A stretch of DNA of 64,000 bases from Armatimonadetes bacterium Uphvl-Ar2. Its GTDB lineage: Bacteria > Armatimonadota > Fimbriimonadia > Fimbriimonadales > Fimbriimonadaceae. The position numbers and the translations under genes were made by a program. Under the pieces are notes generated by a model, which worked only from the letters and a program-made list of their open reading frames with translations, had not been told where the DNA came from and ran no database searches. How positions within the stretch are numbered: position 1 is the stretch's first letter; every line of letters starts with the position of its first letter. Below are positions 10,610 to 54,192 of the stretch, in pieces. The DNA lies in contig CP021424.1 in the NCBI GenBank assembly GCA_002162095.1, positions 434,001 to 498,000 of the forward strand, in the 5' to 3' direction.

Positions 10610-10873
10610 ATGGAGCGATCCCGCACTTTCTTCGTTTTGGCCCTGGGCATTGTCATCGGCGGTGGCCTCATGGGCACCCTCGCCCGCGCCGGGGGCGCGG
10701 CGGCTCAGAGCTCGGCCAGCGACCAGCAACTCAAGCGCATTGCGGACAGCCTGGAACGCATGGAGCGCAACGGCGTGACCGTGAAGATGGACAGCAGCAA
10801 CAACAATGTGAAGATGAGCGGCACGATCACCGTCGAGCCGCCCAGCTTTGGCTTCCGGATTCGGAATGACTAA
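10610..10873 (+). CDS. Small membrane-anchored protein of unknown function
   Basis: An 87-residue protein with one N-terminal hydrophobic helix (about residues 7-27, ending near ARAGGAAAQ), then a short helical stretch rich in Arg and Glu and a polar beta-like tail. The family was not recognised. The coding case rests on a clean signal or anchor segment, a TAACGT box with a six-base spacer, an AGGA just before ATG, and end-to-end packing: its TAA directly abuts the stop codon of the convergent phosphorylase gene. Confidence 0.7.
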   Translation: MERSRTFFVLALGIVIGGGLMGTLARAGGAAAQSSASDQQLKRIADSLERMERNGVTVKMDSSNNNVKMSGTITVEPPSFGFRIRND

Positions 10874-33653: not shown

Positions 33654-33682
33654 GGGACAAAATGAACCAAGAATGGCATAAT
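33654..33682 (+). promoter_or_regulatory. Promoter of the AbiE pair (leaderless)
   Basis: GGGACA (33654-33659), a 17-base spacer, and CATAAT (33677-33682). The ATG at 33689 follows by six bases, so the transcript would start at or next to the start codon. Confidence 0.45.
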
Positions 33683-33688
33683 AGAGCT

Positions 33689-34426
33689 ATGAGCAAGCTG
33701 AAGACCAAGGAGCATTCGAAGCGCAGCGCGACCGAAATCGCATTGCGCAGAGTCAAGTCGTCTGGGAAGTCCTTGCTCCGAGCGGAGGATCTGAAAGGGG
33801 CGACACCGGCCGCGGCATCCAAAGCTCTCGCCAGGCTTGCCAAACAAGGAGTTCTGACCCGAGTGGGAAAGGGCCTGTATTTTGCGCCCAAGGACACCCT
33901 AATCGGAAGGAGCAAGCCCTCGGAGACCTCCATCGCTTTGAAGAGACTGGAGGGCAAGACCAGGCCGACTGGAGCTTCAGCCGCAAACATCTTGGGCCTC
34001 AGCACCCAAATGCCCGCAAGACCTCAACTGATTGCATACACAAGCAACCCGCCAAAGAACGCGGGGACGGCCCGAATCAAATTGCGACGCACTGCGAGTC
34101 CGCATCCTTTGCCCGCTCTTGAAGGAGCTTTGCTTGAGTTCATCCGGGCACGTGGGGCGACTGCGGAAACGAGTCCGAGCGAGAGCATTCGGCGACTGCG
34201 TGAGTTGCTCACCAGCCAACTGACGGCGAGTCGACTGCGAGGTCTTCGAGAGGCGGCTCTTGCCGAGCCACCGCGAGTCAGGGCCGTTCTGGGAGCCTTG
34301 CTTGCGTATGCGGATTTGCCGGAAAGTCTTTGGGAGCCCCTCAAGACTTCGCTCAATCCGCTCACTCGGTTCGAATTTGGGCTCTTCGCTGAACTCCCGA
34401 ACGCAAGGGAGTGGCAGGCGAAGTGA
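33689..34426 (+). CDS. AbiEi-like antitoxin (DUF6088), type IV toxin-antitoxin
   Basis: About 245 residues. The N-terminal winged helix (ATEIALRRVKSSGKSLLRAEDL, KALARLAKQGVLTRVGKGLY) is the DNA-binding domain of AbiEi/DUF6088 antitoxins. A C-terminal antitoxin domain follows. ATG 33689 is preferred over 33662, because the -10 box lies between them. In AbiE systems the antitoxin represses its own operon and counters the nucleotidyltransferase toxin, giving phage-abortive infection. The stop overlaps the toxin start. Confidence 0.85.
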   Translation: MSKLKTKEHSKRSATEIALRRVKSSGKSLLRAEDLKGATPAAASKALARLAKQGVLTRVGKGLYFAPKDTLIGRSKPSETSIALKRLEGKTRPTGASAANILGLSTQMPARPQLIAYTSNPPKNAGTARIKLRRTASPHPLPALEGALLEFIRARGATAETSPSESIRRLRELLTSQLTASRLRGLREAALAEPPRVRAVLGALLAYADLPESLWEPLKTSLNPLTRFEFGLFAELPNAREWQAK

Positions 34427-35382
34427 GTTACCTCTTCGAGCGTTCGGACTTCGCTGAGCTCATCACCGCCACCGGTGACGAAAACGGAATCGGCAACCCT
34501 GGGATTGTCGAGAAGGACTACTTCGTCACCGAGGCGCTCCGGCTCATCGCCCGAGACTTTGGCGACGTTGTCATCTTCAAGGGAGGAACGAGCCTTTCGA
34601 AAGGGTGGAAGATCATCAACCGATTCTCGGAGGACATCGACCTCTACGTGGAGCCCGCTGAATCCGACGAGGCAACCCTCGCGAGATTCGAGCAGGTCGC
34701 GGCTATGGTCGCATCGTTTCCTGGATTCGTAGAGAGACTCGGTCGAAAGGAAACGAAAGGAACCTCCTCTTGGACGGAAGAGTTTGTCTACGAGAGCAGG
34801 TTTGACTCCCTGGGAGGCATCCGTCCGGTTGTGTTGCTTGAAGCAGGAATCCAGAGTGCCGACCAGCCGACCGAGTCGCGGCAGCTGAGTTCTCTCATCG
34901 GGGAGATGCTCGATGCACGGAACGTTGATTCCAGCACCGATGACCGGCTGCTCTTCGAAATGCGGCTCCTACACTTTCGACGCACCTTCGTTGAGAAGCT
35001 CTTCACCCTTCACTCACGGGTTGAGCGAGTGATTGCGCAGGGCAAAGAACTTGGACGGGATGCGCGGCACTACTACGACTTGGCGATGCTGCTTGACCAG
35101 CCTCAGACGAAGGCGATGCTTGCGTCCGAAGAATTCAAAGTGATTTGCAGTCAGTATCGAGATCTCACCGCAAAGTTCTATCCGGGCCAGGTGAAGCTCC
35201 TCCCTGATGGCATGGACCTCTCTGGGAGTCCAGCTCTCTTCCCAAGCGCGGAATTGAAGAGAATGCTTTCAGGGGAATATGTTCGGGAAGCCGACACCCT
35301 CTGCTACGGTCCCTATCCAGACTTCGAAGAGATCCTCAAAGGGCTCGAGGGCATTCGAACTTCGCTGCGCATCCACGTCTAG
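34423..35382 (+). CDS. AbiEii-like nucleotidyltransferase toxin
   Basis: About 319 residues. The nucleotidyltransferase site is complete: FKGGTSLSKGW (GSx-like loop) and FSEDIDLYV with the metal-binding Asp pair (about residues 50-73 from GTG). GTG 34423 overlaps the antitoxin stop as GTGA; an in-frame GTG at 34411 is the alternative. AbiEii-type toxins transfer nucleotides (GTP in the original system; tRNA acceptor stems in related MenT toxins), halting growth. Confidence 0.88.
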   Translation: MSYLFERSDFAELITATGDENGIGNPGIVEKDYFVTEALRLIARDFGDVVIFKGGTSLSKGWKIINRFSEDIDLYVEPAESDEATLARFEQVAAMVASFPGFVERLGRKETKGTSSWTEEFVYESRFDSLGGIRPVVLLEAGIQSADQPTESRQLSSLIGEMLDARNVDSSTDDRLLFEMRLLHFRRTFVEKLFTLHSRVERVIAQGKELGRDARHYYDLAMLLDQPQTKAMLASEEFKVICSQYRDLTAKFYPGQVKLLPDGMDLSGSPALFPSAELKRMLSGEYVREADTLCYGPYPDFEEILKGLEGIRTSLRIHV

Positions 35383-35636
35383 CCAACGCAGTCAGTCAGG
35401 CCAAGGGCGCTCCTCTCCCGGGAGGATGCCGATGATGCGCACCAAGTGTTCCCGTGGTCAAGGATGGTAGCGAGCGCCTTCGGCGTCCTTGACCTCGAAA
35501 ACACCCTCGCTGAGGGCAATCTCTTTGCCTCCCGGGAAGGGATCAATTGCGATGCAGTGAGAGCGAGACCTGTAAACAGAACACGTGAGGTGAATCAGCC
35601 TAGAGTGCCCAAGTGCCGCGCCAAGTGCATCGTCGT

Positions 35637-35652
35637 ATCGTGGTATCATGAT
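35637..35652. promoter_or_regulatory. Candidate ArsR operator overlapping the arsR promoter
   Basis: ATCGTG-GTAT-CATGAT is an imperfect dyad (five of six arm positions). The TATCAT box at 35644-35649 lies eight bases before the arsR GTG, so a repressor bound here would block the -10 element. Confidence 0.45.
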
Positions 35653-35657
35653 TTGAC

Positions 35658-36047
35658 GTGAATGACATCGTGCTTCTTGGAAAGGCGCTCTCAGACCCGA
35701 CGCGAGTGCGCATCCTGCATGCGTTACTCCACTCGGATCTGTGCGTCTGCGAGATGGTCGATGCATTGGAACTGGGGCAGAGCACACTCAGTGCTCATCT
35801 CCAGACCATTCGGCAGGCGGGAATCGTCGAGACGTCCCGTCGGCACAAGATGGTGAGCTACTCCTTGGCGGAAGAGGCAAGGCAACTCATTGCCCCGATC
35901 TTTCGGTTAAGTGAACCGGCGCTCTCCGCCGACCATCGCCTCACAAGAGACTGTTCGCGAATCCAAGAAAGGCTCGGATTGAGAAGCCATGGGCAGTGCA
36001 TTTATGGCCCTGGCCAACTCGACAGAGGCGAGGATACGAAGAAATGA
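35658..36047 (+). CDS. ArsR/SmtB family metal-responsive repressor
   Basis: A 129-residue winged-helix repressor starting at GTG. LSDPTRVRILHALL, the metal-site helix DLCVCEMVDAL (ELCVCDL-like, two Cys in alpha3) and QSTLSAHLQTIRQAGIV form the typical ArsR domain. The C-terminal tail has extra Cys residues (DCSRIQ, GQCIYGP). It heads a metal-efflux operon and should repress it until a thiophilic metal or metalloid binds. Its stop overlaps the next ATG. Confidence 0.9.
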   Translation: MNDIVLLGKALSDPTRVRILHALLHSDLCVCEMVDALELGQSTLSAHLQTIRQAGIVETSRRHKMVSYSLAEEARQLIAPIFRLSEPALSADHRLTRDCSRIQERLGLRSHGQCIYGPGQLDRGEDTKK

Positions 36048-36124
36048 ACGAAGAAACATGCCATTGCTGTTCACAGGGATAATGTCCTTGCCCTGAAGAC
36101 TGTCCCGACTGCGACTGTTGCTGA
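36044..36124 (+). pseudogene. Metallothionein-like Cys-rich micro-ORF interrupted by TAA
   Basis: ATG 36044 overlaps the arsR stop in an ATGA. The frame reads MNEETCHCCSQG, then TAA, then CPCPEDCPDCDCC and TGA. Nine Cys in 26 sense codons, six of them after the stop, is far from random. This looks like a small metal-binding protein cut by an in-frame ochre codon, or possibly a 12-residue peptide plus readthrough form. A substitution error in the assembly is the simplest alternative. Confidence 0.5.
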
Positions 36125-36154: not shown

Positions 36155-36610
36155 GTGAACATTTTCAGAAGATCTGTCCAGTCCCTCCTGCTGCACATTG
36201 TTGCGGCGGTGATGGTTCTTGGACAACCTCACGCGTGCAACCCGACCTACGTACGCGACTCTGGGGTCTTGTGCACCGAGTGTCTTGTCATCGATGAACA
36301 TCACTCGGAAGCCGAAGAGTTTGCCGGGCCTCATGGAGATTGTCACGATTGCTGCGAGATCCGAGAGTGCGAGACTCCGCCGACGCTCGAAACACCGGCA
36401 TCAAGCCATCAGCCCACTTTTGAGCTCGCGATTCTGCCAAACCCATTCGTTCTACCGCCACCTATGGGAAGCCGCTTCCCACGGCAAGCTTTTCCGTTCT
36501 CGTGTGGGGCTCCCGCGACCGGACCACCCCTTGTTCATTTATCCCGCGGGCCCCCTGCTCTCCTTTTCGTTCAGCCGTCTGCTGGACGCAAGGTCGAGTC
36601 TTTGGCGTAG
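36155..36610 (+). CDS. Exported Cys-rich protein of the metal operon, unknown family
   Basis: About 151 residues from GTG 36155. An N-terminal hydrophobic segment (LLLHIVAAVMVLGQPHA) acts as signal peptide. The next part has clustered Cys and His: CTECLVIDEHH, GDCHDCCEIREC. The remainder is Pro-rich and of low complexity. Position between arsR and czcC and the Cys pairs suggest periplasmic metal binding. No family was recognised. Confidence 0.65.
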   Translation: MNIFRRSVQSLLLHIVAAVMVLGQPHACNPTYVRDSGVLCTECLVIDEHHSEAEEFAGPHGDCHDCCEIRECETPPTLETPASSHQPTFELAILPNPFVLPPPMGSRFPRQAFPFSCGAPATGPPLVHLSRGPPALLFVQPSAGRKVESLA

Positions 36611-36642: not shown

Positions 36643-37851
36643 TTGGAGCATCCATTGAAGAGAACACTCATCATTCCTGTATTGCTGGCATCGGCATTTT
36701 GCCAAGCACAAACTCAAATCTCAGCCATTGACGCCCTCAAACTGGCGTCTCAAAACCGTCCCAGTCTTGCGGCATCTCGACTCGGAGTTGAACAAGCTCG
36801 CCTTTCTGCGCGGGCATTGAGCGCACTTCCGCCGCTCAACCTCGCCGCAGGGGCAAGTTCGCGAAGCGAAGTAGGAGCGACAGACCAAGACCTAGCTCTC
36901 ACTCAAGAAATCGACATCTTTGGCAGAAGACGCGCTTCTGGTCGGGTTGGCGAAGCTGACGTACAGCTTGCACTCGCCAGATACCGGAAAGAAGCTGGAT
37001 TGCTGCAATCAGAAGTGCTCACCGCGTTTGCCATCGCCGTTTCTGCCAGCCACCAGAGCGAGGTCGCAGCCGAACTTTTGGTCGTCGCCGAGGGACTCCT
37101 CAACGCCACCAAGCGGCGATTTGATGAAGGGAAGGTCGCAGAGCTTCAGGTGACAAGAGCGACCATCGAGTTTGAGCGAGCGAGGCAGACAAAGGAACTC
37201 AAAGACGCCGACTACCAAGCCGCGATGACAAGGCTGGCAAGCCTACTCGCTGTTCCTCAAGGCGAACTTAGCGTCGTCCCGGACGCCGCCATAGAGCCCG
37301 TTGCGATCCCGAGCATCATGGATCGTCCTGACATTCTAGAAATCAGAGCCGAGGTGGCCAAGGCGTCGGCGGAAGCAGGGTTCGCCAAGGCAACCTCTCG
37401 ACCTGAGTTTAGCCTTCAAGTCGTTCGGTCACCGTGGTCAAACGACCGAGGCTACTTCGTGGGGAGGGCGCAATTCTCATGGAATCTTTGGGACCACGGC
37501 CGAGCACGAAATGAGGTTAGGGCCGCAAACCTCAGGGCTGAAGCAGCAGCCAAGGCACTGTCGGATGCCACCGCTCGGGCCGAGCAAGAACTTGCCGCTG
37601 TCCAGATCGAGTTAGAGTCTCGACAATCGCGAATCAAGAGCTACGAAACGATTCTTGTGTCCGCAAAGGACCTTGTGGTGAAGTCCCAGAAGGGATTTGC
37701 GGAAGGATTCGGAACGCAGGTGGACGTTCTTGAAGCGACCCGGGCGCTTCGAGAGGTAGAGCAGGAACTCGTGGAAGCCAGGCAGCAGCTTGCTTTCGCG
37801 GTGATCAAGCAGTACGAGGCCTCTGGCTACCTTGTCGAGGTGCTCAAGTGA
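36643..37851 (+). CDS. czcC: TolC-family outer-membrane efflux protein (CzcC-like)
   Basis: About 402 residues from TTG 36643; a second TTG at 36655 is possible. It has a signal peptide (IIPVLLASAFCQAQ) and two repeated outer-membrane-factor halves rich in long Ala/Glu coiled-coil helices (ALKLASQNRPSL; LDHAR-type repeats; FAEGFGTQVDVLEATR). It forms the outer-membrane channel of the tripartite CzcCBA pump. It is coupled to czcB by a GTGA overlap. Confidence 0.9.
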   Translation: MEHPLKRTLIIPVLLASAFCQAQTQISAIDALKLASQNRPSLAASRLGVEQARLSARALSALPPLNLAAGASSRSEVGATDQDLALTQEIDIFGRRRASGRVGEADVQLALARYRKEAGLLQSEVLTAFAIAVSASHQSEVAAELLVVAEGLLNATKRRFDEGKVAELQVTRATIEFERARQTKELKDADYQAAMTRLASLLAVPQGELSVVPDAAIEPVAIPSIMDRPDILEIRAEVAKASAEAGFAKATSRPEFSLQVVRSPWSNDRGYFVGRAQFSWNLWDHGRARNEVRAANLRAEAAAKALSDATARAEQELAAVQIELESRQSRIKSYETILVSAKDLVVKSQKGFAEGFGTQVDVLEATRALREVEQELVEARQQLAFAVIKQYEASGYLVEVLK

Positions 37852-39422
37852 AGAAGTTCGTACTCTATCTACTCGCGCTTTTGCTGTTGTCGGGTTGTGG
37901 GAGTAAGAGTGAACCTCCCAAGGTTGACGAACACGGTCATGAGGCGGTAGCGGCAAAGACCGACGAGCACGGACACGAAGAGGAGGGGCACTCCGAAAAT
38001 GAAGTCTCACTGAGCGACGAAGCGAAAGCAATCGCAGGAATCGAAACCACGGCCGTTCGGATGGAACCGTTCCAGCCGATCCTTCAAGTGCCCGGAACCG
38101 TCTCCAGTACTGATAAGGGAAAGGCGGTCGTCACCCCACCAGTTGCGGGACGAGTCGTCTCGATTTCGGCGCGCCTAGGCGACACCGTGCGTCAAGGCCA
38201 GTCACTTGCGACCATCGAGTCTCCCGAACTCTCCCAGGCTTGGTCAGCGATAGCCGATGCGACTCGGATTAGAGATGCCGCAAAGTCAGACGTCGAGCAA
38301 GCTCGATCTGAAGTTCAGTTGTCGCAGGCAAAACTAAGCGCGGCAAAAACGAACCTATCTCGTCAGCGGCAGTTGGCTCAGGCCGGTGCGTTCAGCCAAG
38401 CTCCAGTCCAGCAGGCGCAGAGCGAGTTGAACGATGCACAAAGCGAACTCCTCAGTATTCAGAAGGAGCAGGCCAGTCACGCGGAGCAAGTGCGAAGGCT
38501 AGAGAATCTCTACCGCGACGGCATCGTTTCGAAATCTGAGTTGGAAGCAGCCCGGCTTGAACTTCAGCAGGACCAAATCAAACTGGACCGAGCCAAGGTC
38601 AGGATCGAAGCGGCAAAGGCAACCTATGAACGCGAGAAAAACATCGCCGCTCGGGGCCTTCTCAACGCGAAGGAACTTCAATCCGCCGAAGCCGAGGTGA
38701 AATCCAGTGAGCTAGAACTCGAACGAGCAAGGCTCAGAGTTCGGGCAGCGGAGTCTTCGCTTGCGAATGCCAACCGGGCGATCAGCAACGCTCAGGCGGT
38801 CTACCGCTCCAATTCTGGAAGCGGTGGAGCGTCGGTGGGCCGAGTATCGTTGGTAGCGCCCATCTCCGGCGTCATCACGCATCTTGATGTCACGAGGGGG
38901 CAAGCGGTTGATCGAACCCAAGTGCTTTTAGAAGTCGAGAACCTCCGCTCGGTTTGGGTAACGGCGAATGTTCCTGAGTCAGAAATTGAGAAAGTTCGCA
39001 AAGGAGCGATGGCAAGACTCTCCGTGGCCTCGCTCCCCAACCGCGAGTTTAAGGCGATCATTCAAGTGGTCGGTACTAGAGTTGACCCGAAAACGCGTTC
39101 AATCCCTGTTCAGTGCCTTGTGACCGAATCAAATGGGCTTCTGAAGCCTGATATGTTTGCCAAGGTCTTCATTGGCGTAGGCCAACCAACCACAAAGCTC
39201 GTGATCCCGAAGTCGGCTCTGGTCATGGAAGGGGGCAAGTCCTTTGTCTTTGCGAAGCATGGCGAAGCCTTCGAAAAGCATGAGGTGGTGCTAGGAGAGC
39301 AAGACGGAAATCGCGTTGTGGTTCTCTCCGGAATTGAGGAAGGCGAGACAATCGCCTCGAAGGGCGCGTTTATCCTGGCCAGCGAGCAGAAGAAATCTGA
39401 ACTCAAGGGGCACGAACACTAA
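37848..39422 (+). CDS. czcB: RND periplasmic adaptor, His-rich (CzcB-like)
   Basis: A 524-residue lipoprotein (lipobox LLSGC, residue 17). Immediately after it comes a His/Glu-rich stretch with repeated DEHGHE motifs, likely binding metal. A lipoyl half ([14 protein letters not shown]), a long alpha hairpin (about 130-310, extra long and coiled-coil), and the second lipoyl half [16 protein letters not shown] follow, then beta-barrel domains. The adaptor is longer than usual because of the extended hairpin. Confidence 0.92.
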
Positions 39423-42400
39423 TGCTTGAACGTGCACTTGAATTCAGTCTGAGGCAACGATTCGTCGTCGTGCTCGGAGCGATCTTGCTCGTCATTCTCG
39501 GCATTCTGGCTTGGCCGCAAGTCAACCTCGATGCTGTCCCCGATATAACGACCAACCAGATTTCGATCAACACCGAAACGGGGGGAATGAGCCCCGAGGA
39601 AGTCGAAAAGCTGGTTACCTTTCCAATTGAAACCGCGATGGGAGGGATTCCGGGAGTCGAGCAGGTACGAAGCCTGAGCCAATTCGGTCTCTCCCAAGTC
39701 AACGTGGTATTTCGCGATGATAAGGACATCTACTTTGCCCGTCAGCTTGTCTCCGAACGCCTCAATGGAGTGAAGGATGAACTGCCTGACGGTGTGGGTT
39801 CGCCAACAATGGGACCGGTTTCGACTGGGCTTGGCGATATCTACATGTATGCGATTGAGAGTCCTGATCGGACACCTGCACAGCTACGCGAGCTTCAAGA
39901 CTGGGTCATCGCTCCTCAGCTACGAACCGTTCCTGGAGTAGCCGAAGTGAACGCTACTGATGGCAGTGTGAAGCAATACCAAGTGGTCGTCTCACCCCAA
40001 GCGATGCTTGCAAGGAGCGTCTCGGTTGATGACGTGGTTGCCGCGCTTCAGAACAATAATGAGAACGCCGGTGGGGGTCTCCTCGAACGCAACGGTGAGC
40101 GAGTCCTCATCCGAAGCGTTGGCCTAGCCCAAACCACGTCCGACATCGAGCAGATTGTGGTCAAGTCAGAGGATGGGGTTCCCGTTCTGATCCGCGATGT
40201 GGCAAGCGTGGAACTGGGAGTTCCAGTGCTGACCGGGATCTCGACGAAAGACGGCAAGGAGAGCCTTATGGTCATCGTGATGATGCTCAAGGGTGCGAAT
40301 GGTCAAACCGTTGCCAACGCCGTCAACGAGCGGATCGACGAGATCAAGGGTCAACTCCCGAAAGACATTACGCTAACAACCACTTACGACCGGGCTGAAT
40401 TCGTCGGCGAAGTCTTGCACACCGTTGAAAAGAGCCTGCTGGAAGGGGCGGCTCTCGTCATCATCGTTCTCGTTGTTCTGCTTGGAAACTTCCGAGGAGC
40501 AATCATTGCCGCCATTGCCATCCCGCTCGCCATGCTGTTCGCCGTCCTGGGAATGAAGCAGTTTGGGATCAGTGGCAACCTCATGAGCCTTGGCGCGATT
40601 GACTTTGGAATCATTGTCGATGGCGCGGTGATCATGGTTGAAAACTGCGTTCGGAGGCTCTCGGAAGCTCGGGCGATGCTTGGGCGAACGCTCACGAGAG
40701 AAGAGCATGCGGGAGTCATCAAGCAGGCGACTTCTGAAGTTCGAAAGGTGACGCAGTTTGGCGAGATGATCATTATCGCCACCTTCATCCCAATTCTCGC
40801 GCTTGAAGGCGTGGAGGGCAAGATGTTCAGGCCTATGGCGCTTGTGTTCATTCTGGCGCTGGTCGGCGCGCTCATCCTGTCGCTCACGTTGATTCCCACG
40901 CTGTGCTCACTCTTCTTGAGCCGAGATACTCAGGAGAAGCATAGTCGGCTTCTGGGGTTCTTCGAGAGGCTCTACGCTCCAACCCTCGCCTTTGCCCTCA
41001 AGCGTAGAGTTTGGGTAATTGGAGCAGCTTCGGTTCTCTTGGTTGCCTGTGGCTTTCTCTTTACGCGGATCGGGTCGGAGTTTGTCCCGAAGCTCGATGA
41101 AGGGTCGCTTGTCATTCAGCCGATTCGCGTTCGCACGGTTGACATGGAGCAAACCATCAAACTCGTTACGGCCTATGAGAAGAAGGTTCTGGAAGTCCCG
41201 GAGGTGTTGACGGTCGTGACCCGAACTGGAACCCCAGAGATCGCAACCGACCCGATGCCGCTGAGCTTGAGCGATAGCTTCCTCACGCTGAAGCCGAAAG
41301 CGCAGTGGCGACCAGGCATGACCAAGGAAAAACTCATCGCTGAGCTTCAATCTAAGATTCAGCAAGTCCCCGGGCAGGGCTACAACTTCAGCCAGCCGAT
41401 TGAACTCCGGTTTGCAGAGATCGTATCCGGTGTAAAGGCGGACGTCGGGATCAAGGTGTTCGGCGAGAACCTTGGTGAGCTCAAGGCAAAAGCGGACGAG
41501 ATCGCAGCCCTGATGCAAGATATTCCGGGAGCGACTGACATTGAAGTCGAGCAAGTCGATGACGTACCGGTGTTCCAGATAGACATTGACCGGGAGGCCA
41601 TTGCCCGGCTGGGAATCAGCATCGCGGATATCCAGCACATCGTCTCGGTCGCTCTTGGAGGCGAAGAAGTCGGTCAAATTGTGGAAGGAGATCGTCGGTT
41701 TGGTCTTGCGGTGCGACTGCCCGAAGATATCCGCAACGATCCAGAAGCGATCAAGTCACTGCGAGTTGAGACCCCCACGGGCGGCTCTGTGCCTCTATCG
41801 AGTTTGGCAACGATAGGCGATCGGGTGGCTCCCGCCCAAATTTCGCGGGAAATGGGCAAGCGGCGAGTCGTCGTTACGCTCAACGTTCGGGGTCGCGACC
41901 TTGGCTCGTTCATCGCAGAGGCACAACGCAAGGTGAAGTCCGACCTGAAACTCGATGAAGGGTACTACGTGACCTGGGGTGGGCAGTTTGAGAACCTTCA
42001 GCGGGCCTCCCAACGGCTGACGATTGTTGTGCCGGTTGCGCTGGGGCTCATCTTCGTGCTCTTGTTTTCGACCTTTGGGTCAATGAAGCAGGCTGCGTTG
42101 ATTTTCACTGGCGTGCCGCTCGCGATAACCGGAGGAATCATAGCATTGGCTCTTCGCGGAATGCCTTTTAGCATCACGGCGGGAGTCGGTTTCATTGCGC
42201 TATCTGGGGTTGCGGTTCTCAATGGAGTGGTGATGGTTTCGGCGATCAACCGATTGAGGAGCGAGTCGGGAATGTCGGTCTTGGAAGCCGTCAAGGAGGG
42301 TGCTTCCCAACGACTCCGCCCTGTCCTCATGACTGCCCTCGTCGCAGCACTTGGGTTTATTCCCATGGCGCTGAACACGGGCATCGGGGCAGAGGTTCAG

Positions 42401-42520
42401 CGACCGCTTGCAACCGTTGTGATCGGTGGGATTCTCTCGGCGACTCTGTTGACGCTTGTAGTGTTGCCAGCTCTCTACACCTGGTTTGAAAAGGAAGGAC
42501 CCCCGCCCACAATACACTGA
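39422..42520 (+). CDS. czcA: Heavy-metal efflux RND transporter (CzcA/CusA family)
   Basis: A 1032-residue inner-membrane proton antiporter with about twelve helices. The heavy-metal subfamily signature [15 protein letters not shown] in TM4 (about residues 394-408) carries the proton-relay Asp and Glu. This is the divalent-cation (Zn/Co/Cd) type rather than the Cu/Ag CusA type, which has different residues here. It starts at ATG sharing one base with the czcB stop and ends the operon. Confidence 0.95.
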
Positions 42521-52941: not shown

Positions 52942-54192
52942 TCATGGACATGAAATCGGAGAACTGTTAATCAGCGGGTCGTAGGTTCGAGTCCTACTGC
53001 GGCAGCCACTTTTTAGGTTCAAATCCGAGCCAAACGCCAAACTCCCTTTTCTCGAAAGTAGCAGAGAAAGTAGCAGAGCCGGTGATCGACGATAAACATC
53101 CACGAGCAATCGCGGTCCTGTCGGTAACCCCTGCTCTTGTTCTCGAGACGGTCTGCTAACGAGCGACTTCTTCATTTTAAGTGCGTCCGACGCCTGAATG
53201 AGAGCGTCACGAACATCAGCAAGCGCCGGTGAACATCGGTGGACGGACATGAGGACCCCTGAATCGCGCTTTTTCAGCATTCTCTTCATCCACAGAAGGT
53301 CATCCATGGTATGGAGTGCGCGCGGACCAAAAGCGTCGAGGCCAACTTCAAGGAATGACGTCAAGCAATCTGCCAAGCACTCCTGCAGGTCAGTCGCTGG
53401 GCGCAGGATCGACTCAGGAGCTAAACGGCACCAACGCAAACGTTTGCTCCAAAACTCAGTGGCTTCCGCCTGCAATCGTCCAACGATGTCATCGACCTGG
53501 AGCAGTGTCGCATCCCTCTGGTACCGATAGCGCAGCGCCGAGCGACGGTACCGGGCTTCAATTCGGAGATGTTGTTTCTGATTTTCTGGGTTCTCTTTGA
53601 GGTAAGCGATACCGGAGACGGAGGATGGACGCTTCCCTCTGAAGTCGTGGGTGTAGACGCCCTTTGCATGCCGCCTGGGCTGCCTTAGCGACTCAAGCGT
53701 GATGCCCTGCTCGATCAAGTTGAGGTCGTCCGAGGTCGCTGGCAATCTGGTCTGTGCAGCCAAGTCGATCCTTGAGATCAGAGCAGTCCTCAGCCAGTCG
53801 CGCTTCAAGTCGGGAATCTGGCGCCGAACTTCTGAGTTGATGACTTCAAGGACCTCCTTCAACTGACTTGGTGCGCATGGTTCAAAGTTGTCGCCACGAA
53901 ATAGCTTCGGCGCATTGACGCGTATCACCAACCAGGGTAGGCCGGAGCTTGTCTTGTAGATACGTAGTTGAATTCCTGGGGCAGGTTTCAGCACAGGCAG
54001 TGTTGTACGCGGCCCGAGGCAGTAGAACACGTGGAGGGTATCGAGCCCCCACTCCAAGCACGATGCCTCGCCTCCTCCATCAAGACTCGGTCGCGAATGG
54101 GAGGACGCCGAGCATTGACGAGAGGCCAGAGCCTGAGAACGAGGCATCAAGAGTCTCTCCCGTCTTGCTTTGCTGTCTTCAATCATTTGCAC
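52942..54192 (-). CDS. Gene II/X-like (filamentous phage type) replication protein
   Basis: About 416 residues; the true start may be 54147. After a low-complexity N-terminus the pattern LDTLHVFYCLG, RVNAPKLFRGDNFEP, LISRIDLAAQTRL, GKRPSSVSGIAYLKE and LRIEARYRRSALRYRY fits phage/plasmid replication proteins of the gene II/X (RstA-like) family, which nick the origin for rolling-circle replication. The last 25-30 codons run through attR (SRTRTYDPLINS is a reverse-read tRNA), so the natural C-terminus has been replaced by the island junction. Confidence 0.55.
   Translation of the reverse strand: MQMIEDSKARRERLLMPRSQALASRQCSASSHSRPSLDGGGEASCLEWGLDTLHVFYCLGPRTTLPVLKPAPGIQLRIYKTSSGLPWLVIRVNAPKLFRGDNFEPCAPSQLKEVLEVINSEVRRQIPDLKRDWLRTALISRIDLAAQTRLPATSDDLNLIEQGITLESLRQPRRHAKGVYTHDFRGKRPSSVSGIAYLKENPENQKQHLRIEARYRRSALRYRYQRDATLLQVDDIVGRLQAEATEFWSKRLRWCRLAPESILRPATDLQECLADCLTSFLEVGLDAFGPRALHTMDDLLWMKRMLKKRDSGVLMSVHRCSPALADVRDALIQASDALKMKKSLVSRPSREQEQGLPTGPRLLVDVYRRSPALLLSLLLSRKGSLAFGSDLNLKSGCRSRTRTYDPLINSSPISCP
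52963..53026 (+). repeat. attR: second copy of the 64-bp tRNA-Asn repeat
   Basis: Identical to 29924-29987. It contains the tRNA 3' half from the anticodon loop to CCA but no 5' half, so it is not a functional tRNA. Confidence 0.97.

Follow-up and report, generated by a model that had tools for sequence, protein, structure and literature searches.

The Cys-rich frame and its gene neighbourhood

The stretch of DNA analysed (64,000 nucleotides, G000:C1:434001-498000; hereafter the window) belongs to a member of the Fimbriimonadaceae (Armatimonadota), whose genome of 2.63 Mb is assembled as a single contig and is 99.66% complete. The features of the locus are as follows.

35632..35657, plus strand: probable ArsR operator GTCGTATCGTGGTATCATGATTTGAC, an imperfect inverted repeat that abuts the arsR start codon
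35658..36047, plus strand: arsR, ArsR/SmtB metalloregulator of 129 aa (PF01022, 1e-16; NF033788, 78 bits at a cut-off of 55)
36030..36033, plus strand: GAGG inside arsR, read from the sequence, a possible ribosome-binding site for the micro-ORF
36044..36121, plus strand: metallothionein-like micro-ORF of 26 codons, broken at codon 13; intact orthologs and selection across the family
36080..36082, plus strand: in-frame TAA, codon 13 of the micro-ORF; the sister, G001, has CAA (Gln) here
36122..36124, plus strand: terminal TGA of the micro-ORF, from the frame translation
36155..36610, plus strand: ORF of 151 aa with a possible signal peptide and a middle part rich in Cys and His; matches no family, and its frame is preserved in the sister
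36643..37851, plus strand: outer-membrane efflux protein (OEP) of the CzcC/TolC type (PF02321, 2.3e-34)
37848..39422, plus strand: CzcB/CusB-type adaptor, a probable lipoprotein with a His-rich N-terminus (PF16576, 1.4e-37; TIGR01730, 159 bits)
39422..42520, plus strand: heavy-metal RND pump of the CzcA/CusA family (TIGR00914, 1290.8 bits; 15-residue motif)

The window ArsR matched the winged-helix profile and carries the CVC metal site within the motif DLCVCEMVDAL. The operator-like repeat is kept in the closest relatives, e.g. as GTCATATCGTGGTATCATGATATGAC in L054; it was matched by 0 of 200 shuffles in L051 and L054, and by 24 of 200 for the window's own copy. The 151-aa ORF, which separates the peptide from the efflux genes, contains the Cys/His-rich segments CTECLVIDEHHSEAEE...HGDCHDCCEIRECE. 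The 15-residue motif of the pump resembles that of the divalent-cation (Zn/Cd/Co) class, which serves as a lead only.

Translation of 36044-36121 gives MNEETCHCCSQG, a stop, and CPCPEDCPDCDCC. The start codon of the frame shares an ATGA with the arsR stop (36044-36047). The presence of a Cys-rich frame at the arsR overlap, as had been proposed from the letters of the DNA alone, was confirmed. The original prediction described seven residues with three Cys before the TAA; the number of Cys is right, while the segment is 12 residues long. The 13 residues with six Cys after the TAA were found as described. It had further been held that such a density lies beyond chance. The frame contains 9 Cys per 26 codons; in 60 random 64-kb Markov-1 windows matched in dinucleotide composition the highest count is 8 at most, usually 6-7, which agrees with that claim. 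Against it, a second stretch of 9 Cys in 26 codons, SHCCCCCPSSRSRRCAPCVPGCPQCA, lies on the minus strand of the window itself (about 10728-10823 in plus coordinates; reverse-complement offsets 53178-53196 in the density listing). Because of this second stretch, Cys density alone does not prove a gene; the micro-ORF is accepted as one because it is conserved in relatives.

The in-frame TAA and the sister genome

In the same-genus genome G001 (UBA2785 record, L003/L032), the 26-codon frame is uninterrupted and reads MNEETCQCCSQGQCPCPEDCPDCDCC. Over 8,896 gap-free aligned bases the window and G001 differ by 241 substitutions and no indels, and among the genes from arsR to czcA a stop differs only at 36080, with TAA in the window and CAA in G001. 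The differences amount to 3 of 78 bases in the micro-ORF, 1 of 390 in arsR and 0 of 33 in the spacer. When 23 larger ORFs of the window were compared with the sister, little frame damage was seen.

The similarity to the sister varies along the window. Positions 33662-36047 (33.7-36.0 kb) are nearly identical (0.1-0.8% different); the divergence of genes at 18-26 kb is about 8-25%. The near-identical block holds an AbiEi/AbiEii-type pair beside arsR, with an AAA/DUF3854 gene nearby. It is possible that the block is a recently exchanged island or reflects a recent shared transfer.

A simple explanation of the TAA would be an error of base calling or assembly, with CAA and a working 26-residue peptide in the organism itself. 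The difference is indeed a single base, and the frame is intact in the sister and in all the other family members found. However, the genome is one nearly complete contig, and neither the absence of indels over 8.9 kb, the absence of any further stop difference from arsR to czcA nor the little frame damage in the larger ORFs points to a faulty sequence; a real nonsense change is also equally simple. An error is considered the less likely of the two, though a serious candidate, and a real mutation is moderately favoured over it.

The prediction had also suggested stop readthrough that gives two forms. Programmed or metal-stimulated readthrough would produce peptides of 12 and 26 residues, and the frame beyond the TAA is still fully coding. 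But the stop was found in no relative, and its context is UAA followed by U, which is a strong termination context. The codon list holds no in-frame ATG, GTG, TTG or CTG after the TAA from which translation could restart, and the AUG that overlaps the stop (36081) encodes MSLP only. Selenocysteine is decoded from UGA, not UAA, and the window genome lacks tRNA-Sec: the best score in an Rfam search was 45.9 bits at a cut-off of 47, and the top three places were identified by ARAGORN as tRNA-Ser and tRNA-Leu. A selenocysteine reading of the stop was accordingly rejected, and programmed or metal-stimulated readthrough is very improbable here.

A family of Cys-rich peptides behind arsR

The frame belongs to a family of peptides whose genes usually overlap or directly follow arsR and are under purifying selection, and of the copies found only the window's carries a nonsense codon. 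ORFs with at least 25% Cys and a start from -80 to +120 nt relative to the arsR stop were present at 14 of 55 distinct ArsR loci, a count that leaves out the window's own interrupted frame, and at no other place in 403 kb of strand sequence. They were found at 10 of 18 loci whose ArsR matched at E < 1e-26 and at 4 of 37 weaker ones. The commonest form is a two-repeat peptide of 46-47 aa with 16 Cys. In four loci with 70-74% ArsR identity (L004, L005, L051, L052) this peptide, MSETTCPCCANGPCACPPCQDGECKCPCCANGNCPCPENCPNCDCC with close variants, starts from the same overlap, and GAGG again stands upstream of its start. It consists of two CPCCxNGxCxCP-type repeats, the second of which corresponds to the window form. 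More distant ArsR loci carry other Cys-rich peptides, e.g. MKNCTCDCPCCKSGECPGCPCGCGC, MNCNCNCDCCASGQCPGSTCTCGCPCGK, MPTNCLCCEGGCTCPCNCPNCNCC and MSDDKCCGCHCCSNGCCGGSGCSCCG.

Very different poly-Cys peptides, e.g. MSKCKCCDCCDCCDCCDCCKCGCGCCSK, stand at the arsR stop in L018, L017, L012 and L013. Cys peptides linked to arsR may have arisen repeatedly and independently, or they may evolve very fast, and the distant peptides (e.g. those of L017 and L018) may be unrelated to the core family.

Pairwise codon counts over the 46-aa core gave a synonymous excess in 21 of 21 pairs, which indicates strong purifying selection; in one example pair, the observed counts were 23 synonymous and 5 nonsynonymous codons, where 4.9 and 18.7 were expected. 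When 291 genomes of the phylum were searched with a profile, 14 members were recovered in 12 genomes, all from the taxonomic family of the window, and among these 14 a stop codon occurs only in the window's copy. In the core alignment, however, only 10 of 26 columns are invariant, nearly all of them Cys. Distant ArsR loci led to 11 further genomes, mostly from other groups; the profile found no member there, a weakly informative result. No copy was found in the plasmid sequences searched. Homologous operons without a Cys-rich frame, or the same TAA followed by random sequence, had been named beforehand as results that would speak against the prediction; both were checked, and neither held.

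A chance Cys-rich shadow frame without function, for which the minus-strand stretch described above could be quoted, is contradicted by this conservation, by the selection and by the positional enrichment. It is refuted at the level of the family because intact orthologs are conserved, and its probability for the window frame is negligible.

Members also occur away from arsR: L071 and L075 lie upstream of the double-TGA (UxxU) gene described below, and L079/L080 stand alone. In L076/L087 (G003:C32) a tRNA-Sec gene is followed, after about 0.1-0.2 kb, by a Cys peptide of the 46-aa type. A paralog of 26 codons, MSEKECPCCPGGECNCPEGCENCDCC, is intact in the window genome itself, where it immediately follows the stop of a second ArsR gene, distinct from the first; G001 carries the identical paralog peptide.

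L068:1498-1944 (minus strand in L068), also L081: second ArsR-peptide locus of the genus; ArsR with an unusual KEACCSVACAP segment

Just upstream of the second arsR, both genomes have a perfect palindrome (12 nt, spacer of 4 nt), TGATATTTCGAT-gaat-ATCGAAATATCA. The paralog could cover the function of the broken copy.

The members bear also on whether the frame might act as a Cys-codon leader peptide (attenuator), at which ribosome stalling would control the downstream metal genes, no chelator being made. Actinobacterial polycysteine leader peptides, which serve cysteine attenuation, are tiny Cys-dense ORFs that head operons; the present frame is likewise short and Cys-dense, and is followed by efflux genes in the window and, in several relatives, by the UxxU gene. 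In contrast to those leaders, it stands behind a regulator gene, is sometimes built of repeats, shows conservation between its Cys and is also found on its own. The copies at L068/L081 and L076 have no evident transporter gene behind them, inter-Cys residues and the repeat structure are conserved, selection acts on amino acids, and the two-repeat forms extend to 46-47 aa with 16 Cys. An attenuator is therefore improbable, although less so than readthrough.

Metallothionein-like character and the linked double-TGA gene

In the functional sense, a metallothionein is a small protein without signal peptide in which Cys, clustered as CxC/CC, makes up about 30% or more of the residues. The peptides are small, have no hydrophobic leader or signal peptide, contain from 9 Cys in 26 residues to 16 in 46, and show the motifs CxCC, CxC and CDCC; the core peptides, of 24-47 aa, have internal repeats and, when intact, no His. 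Judged by its sequences, the family fits the functional metallothionein class, and no match to it was found among the curated sequence families covered by the searches. Four intact members gave no match in Pfam or NCBIfam at E up to 1, short Cys-rich queries being hard for profiles, and no relevant relative was found in the PDB. Two weak PDB matches to scorpion toxins (E 0.18 or worse) were judged to be chance. A literature search for metallothionein in Armatimonadota or Fimbriimonas returned nothing relevant.

It was reported previously that ArsR/SmtB repressors control cyanobacterial metallothioneins, BmtA-BxmR forming an operon and smtA-smtB a divergon (PMC8790569). The pairing of a small Cys-rich protein with an ArsR/SmtB repressor resembles that of SmtA, BmtA and NmtA with SmtB, BxmR and AzuR, the control being putative here. 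The bacterial metallothioneins studied so far have a GATA-type zinc-finger fold, with His often a ligand beside Cys, and MymT is short and Cys-rich with a motif unlike the others (PMC10612145). Unlike SmtA, BmtA and NmtA, the new core peptides lack His, measure 24-47 aa, contain repeats, lie at the arsR stop and have no Pfam or NCBIfam match. MymT is alike in being short and Cys-rich, but no profile or PDB match links the two. It is reportedly under a copper regulator and not an adjacent ArsR.

Taken together, these results make it probable that the window feature is one copy, with a single nonsense change, CAA to TAA, at codon 13, of a lineage-specific, metallothionein-like microprotein family that is putatively under ArsR control. 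The proposal of a metallothionein-like chelator that was just inactivated fits with the CAA of G001 and with the intact relatives at the same ATGA overlap, metal binding itself being putative. ArsR would repress its own operon through the operator beside its start codon, and metal would release it. Ribosomes ending arsR may then restart at the ATGA overlap and produce the Cys peptide. In the cytosol this peptide would bind metal ions of the soft or borderline kind, and their export would fall to the Czc pump. The local peptide would be lost in the window genome, provided that the TAA is real.

Behind arsR, or behind arsR and the peptide, many relatives carry a gene reading ...VPT(stop)TG(stop)PGEG..., with two TGA at fixed positions.

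L034:1701-2348 and L037:3451-4092, plus strand: candidate selenoprotein (VPTUTGUPGEG) of about 215 aa, secreted, with two conserved in-frame TGA

The gene was also seen in L033, L035, L004, L005, L007, L009, L053, L055, L057, L071, L075 and L088-L117, and most full-length close matches across the phylum have exactly two TGA. Within the taxonomic family of the window it is present in 30 of the 48 genomes that have a strong tRNA-Sec hit (E < 1e-10) and in 3 of the 37 that have none (Fisher p 1.6e-7; genome lists compiled by hand); these three are 70-88% complete. A tRNA-Sec over the cut-off was found in G002 and many relatives. A SECIS-like hairpin, which starts about 14 nt past the second TGA, is preserved across 30 sequences, among which some pairs have changed on both sides. 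The structure model shows an N-terminal helix and 12 strands in a barrel-like arrangement (mean pLDDT 71, with low values in the UxxU tail). No match was found in NCBIfam and none of significance in Pfam, and the words 'porin', 'ArsR' and 'Armatimonad' are absent from a 2026 selenoproteome review (PMC13188914). The gene is a candidate for an apparently undescribed, barrel-like selenoprotein family. The window genome has only a distant, stop-free barrel homolog (G000:C1:1962418-1962960).

We lean, by a little, towards a wider reading, in which an undescribed metallothionein-like family, co-translated with its ArsR sensor in the Fimbriimonadaceae, forms a metal-handling module that includes the double-selenocysteine (UxxU) outer-membrane-type protein in selenocysteine-using relatives; the window lineage would lack the selenoprotein and would just have lost this chelator copy.

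Few bacterial metallothioneins are known, and their number is probably an underestimate, as genes this short escape annotation; a family joined to its sensor gene by a stop-start overlap offers a simple way to find more of them. The intact and broken copies of the sister pair provide a natural comparison. The linked double-TGA gene suggests a connection, in this phylum, between the use of selenium and the handling of soft metals.
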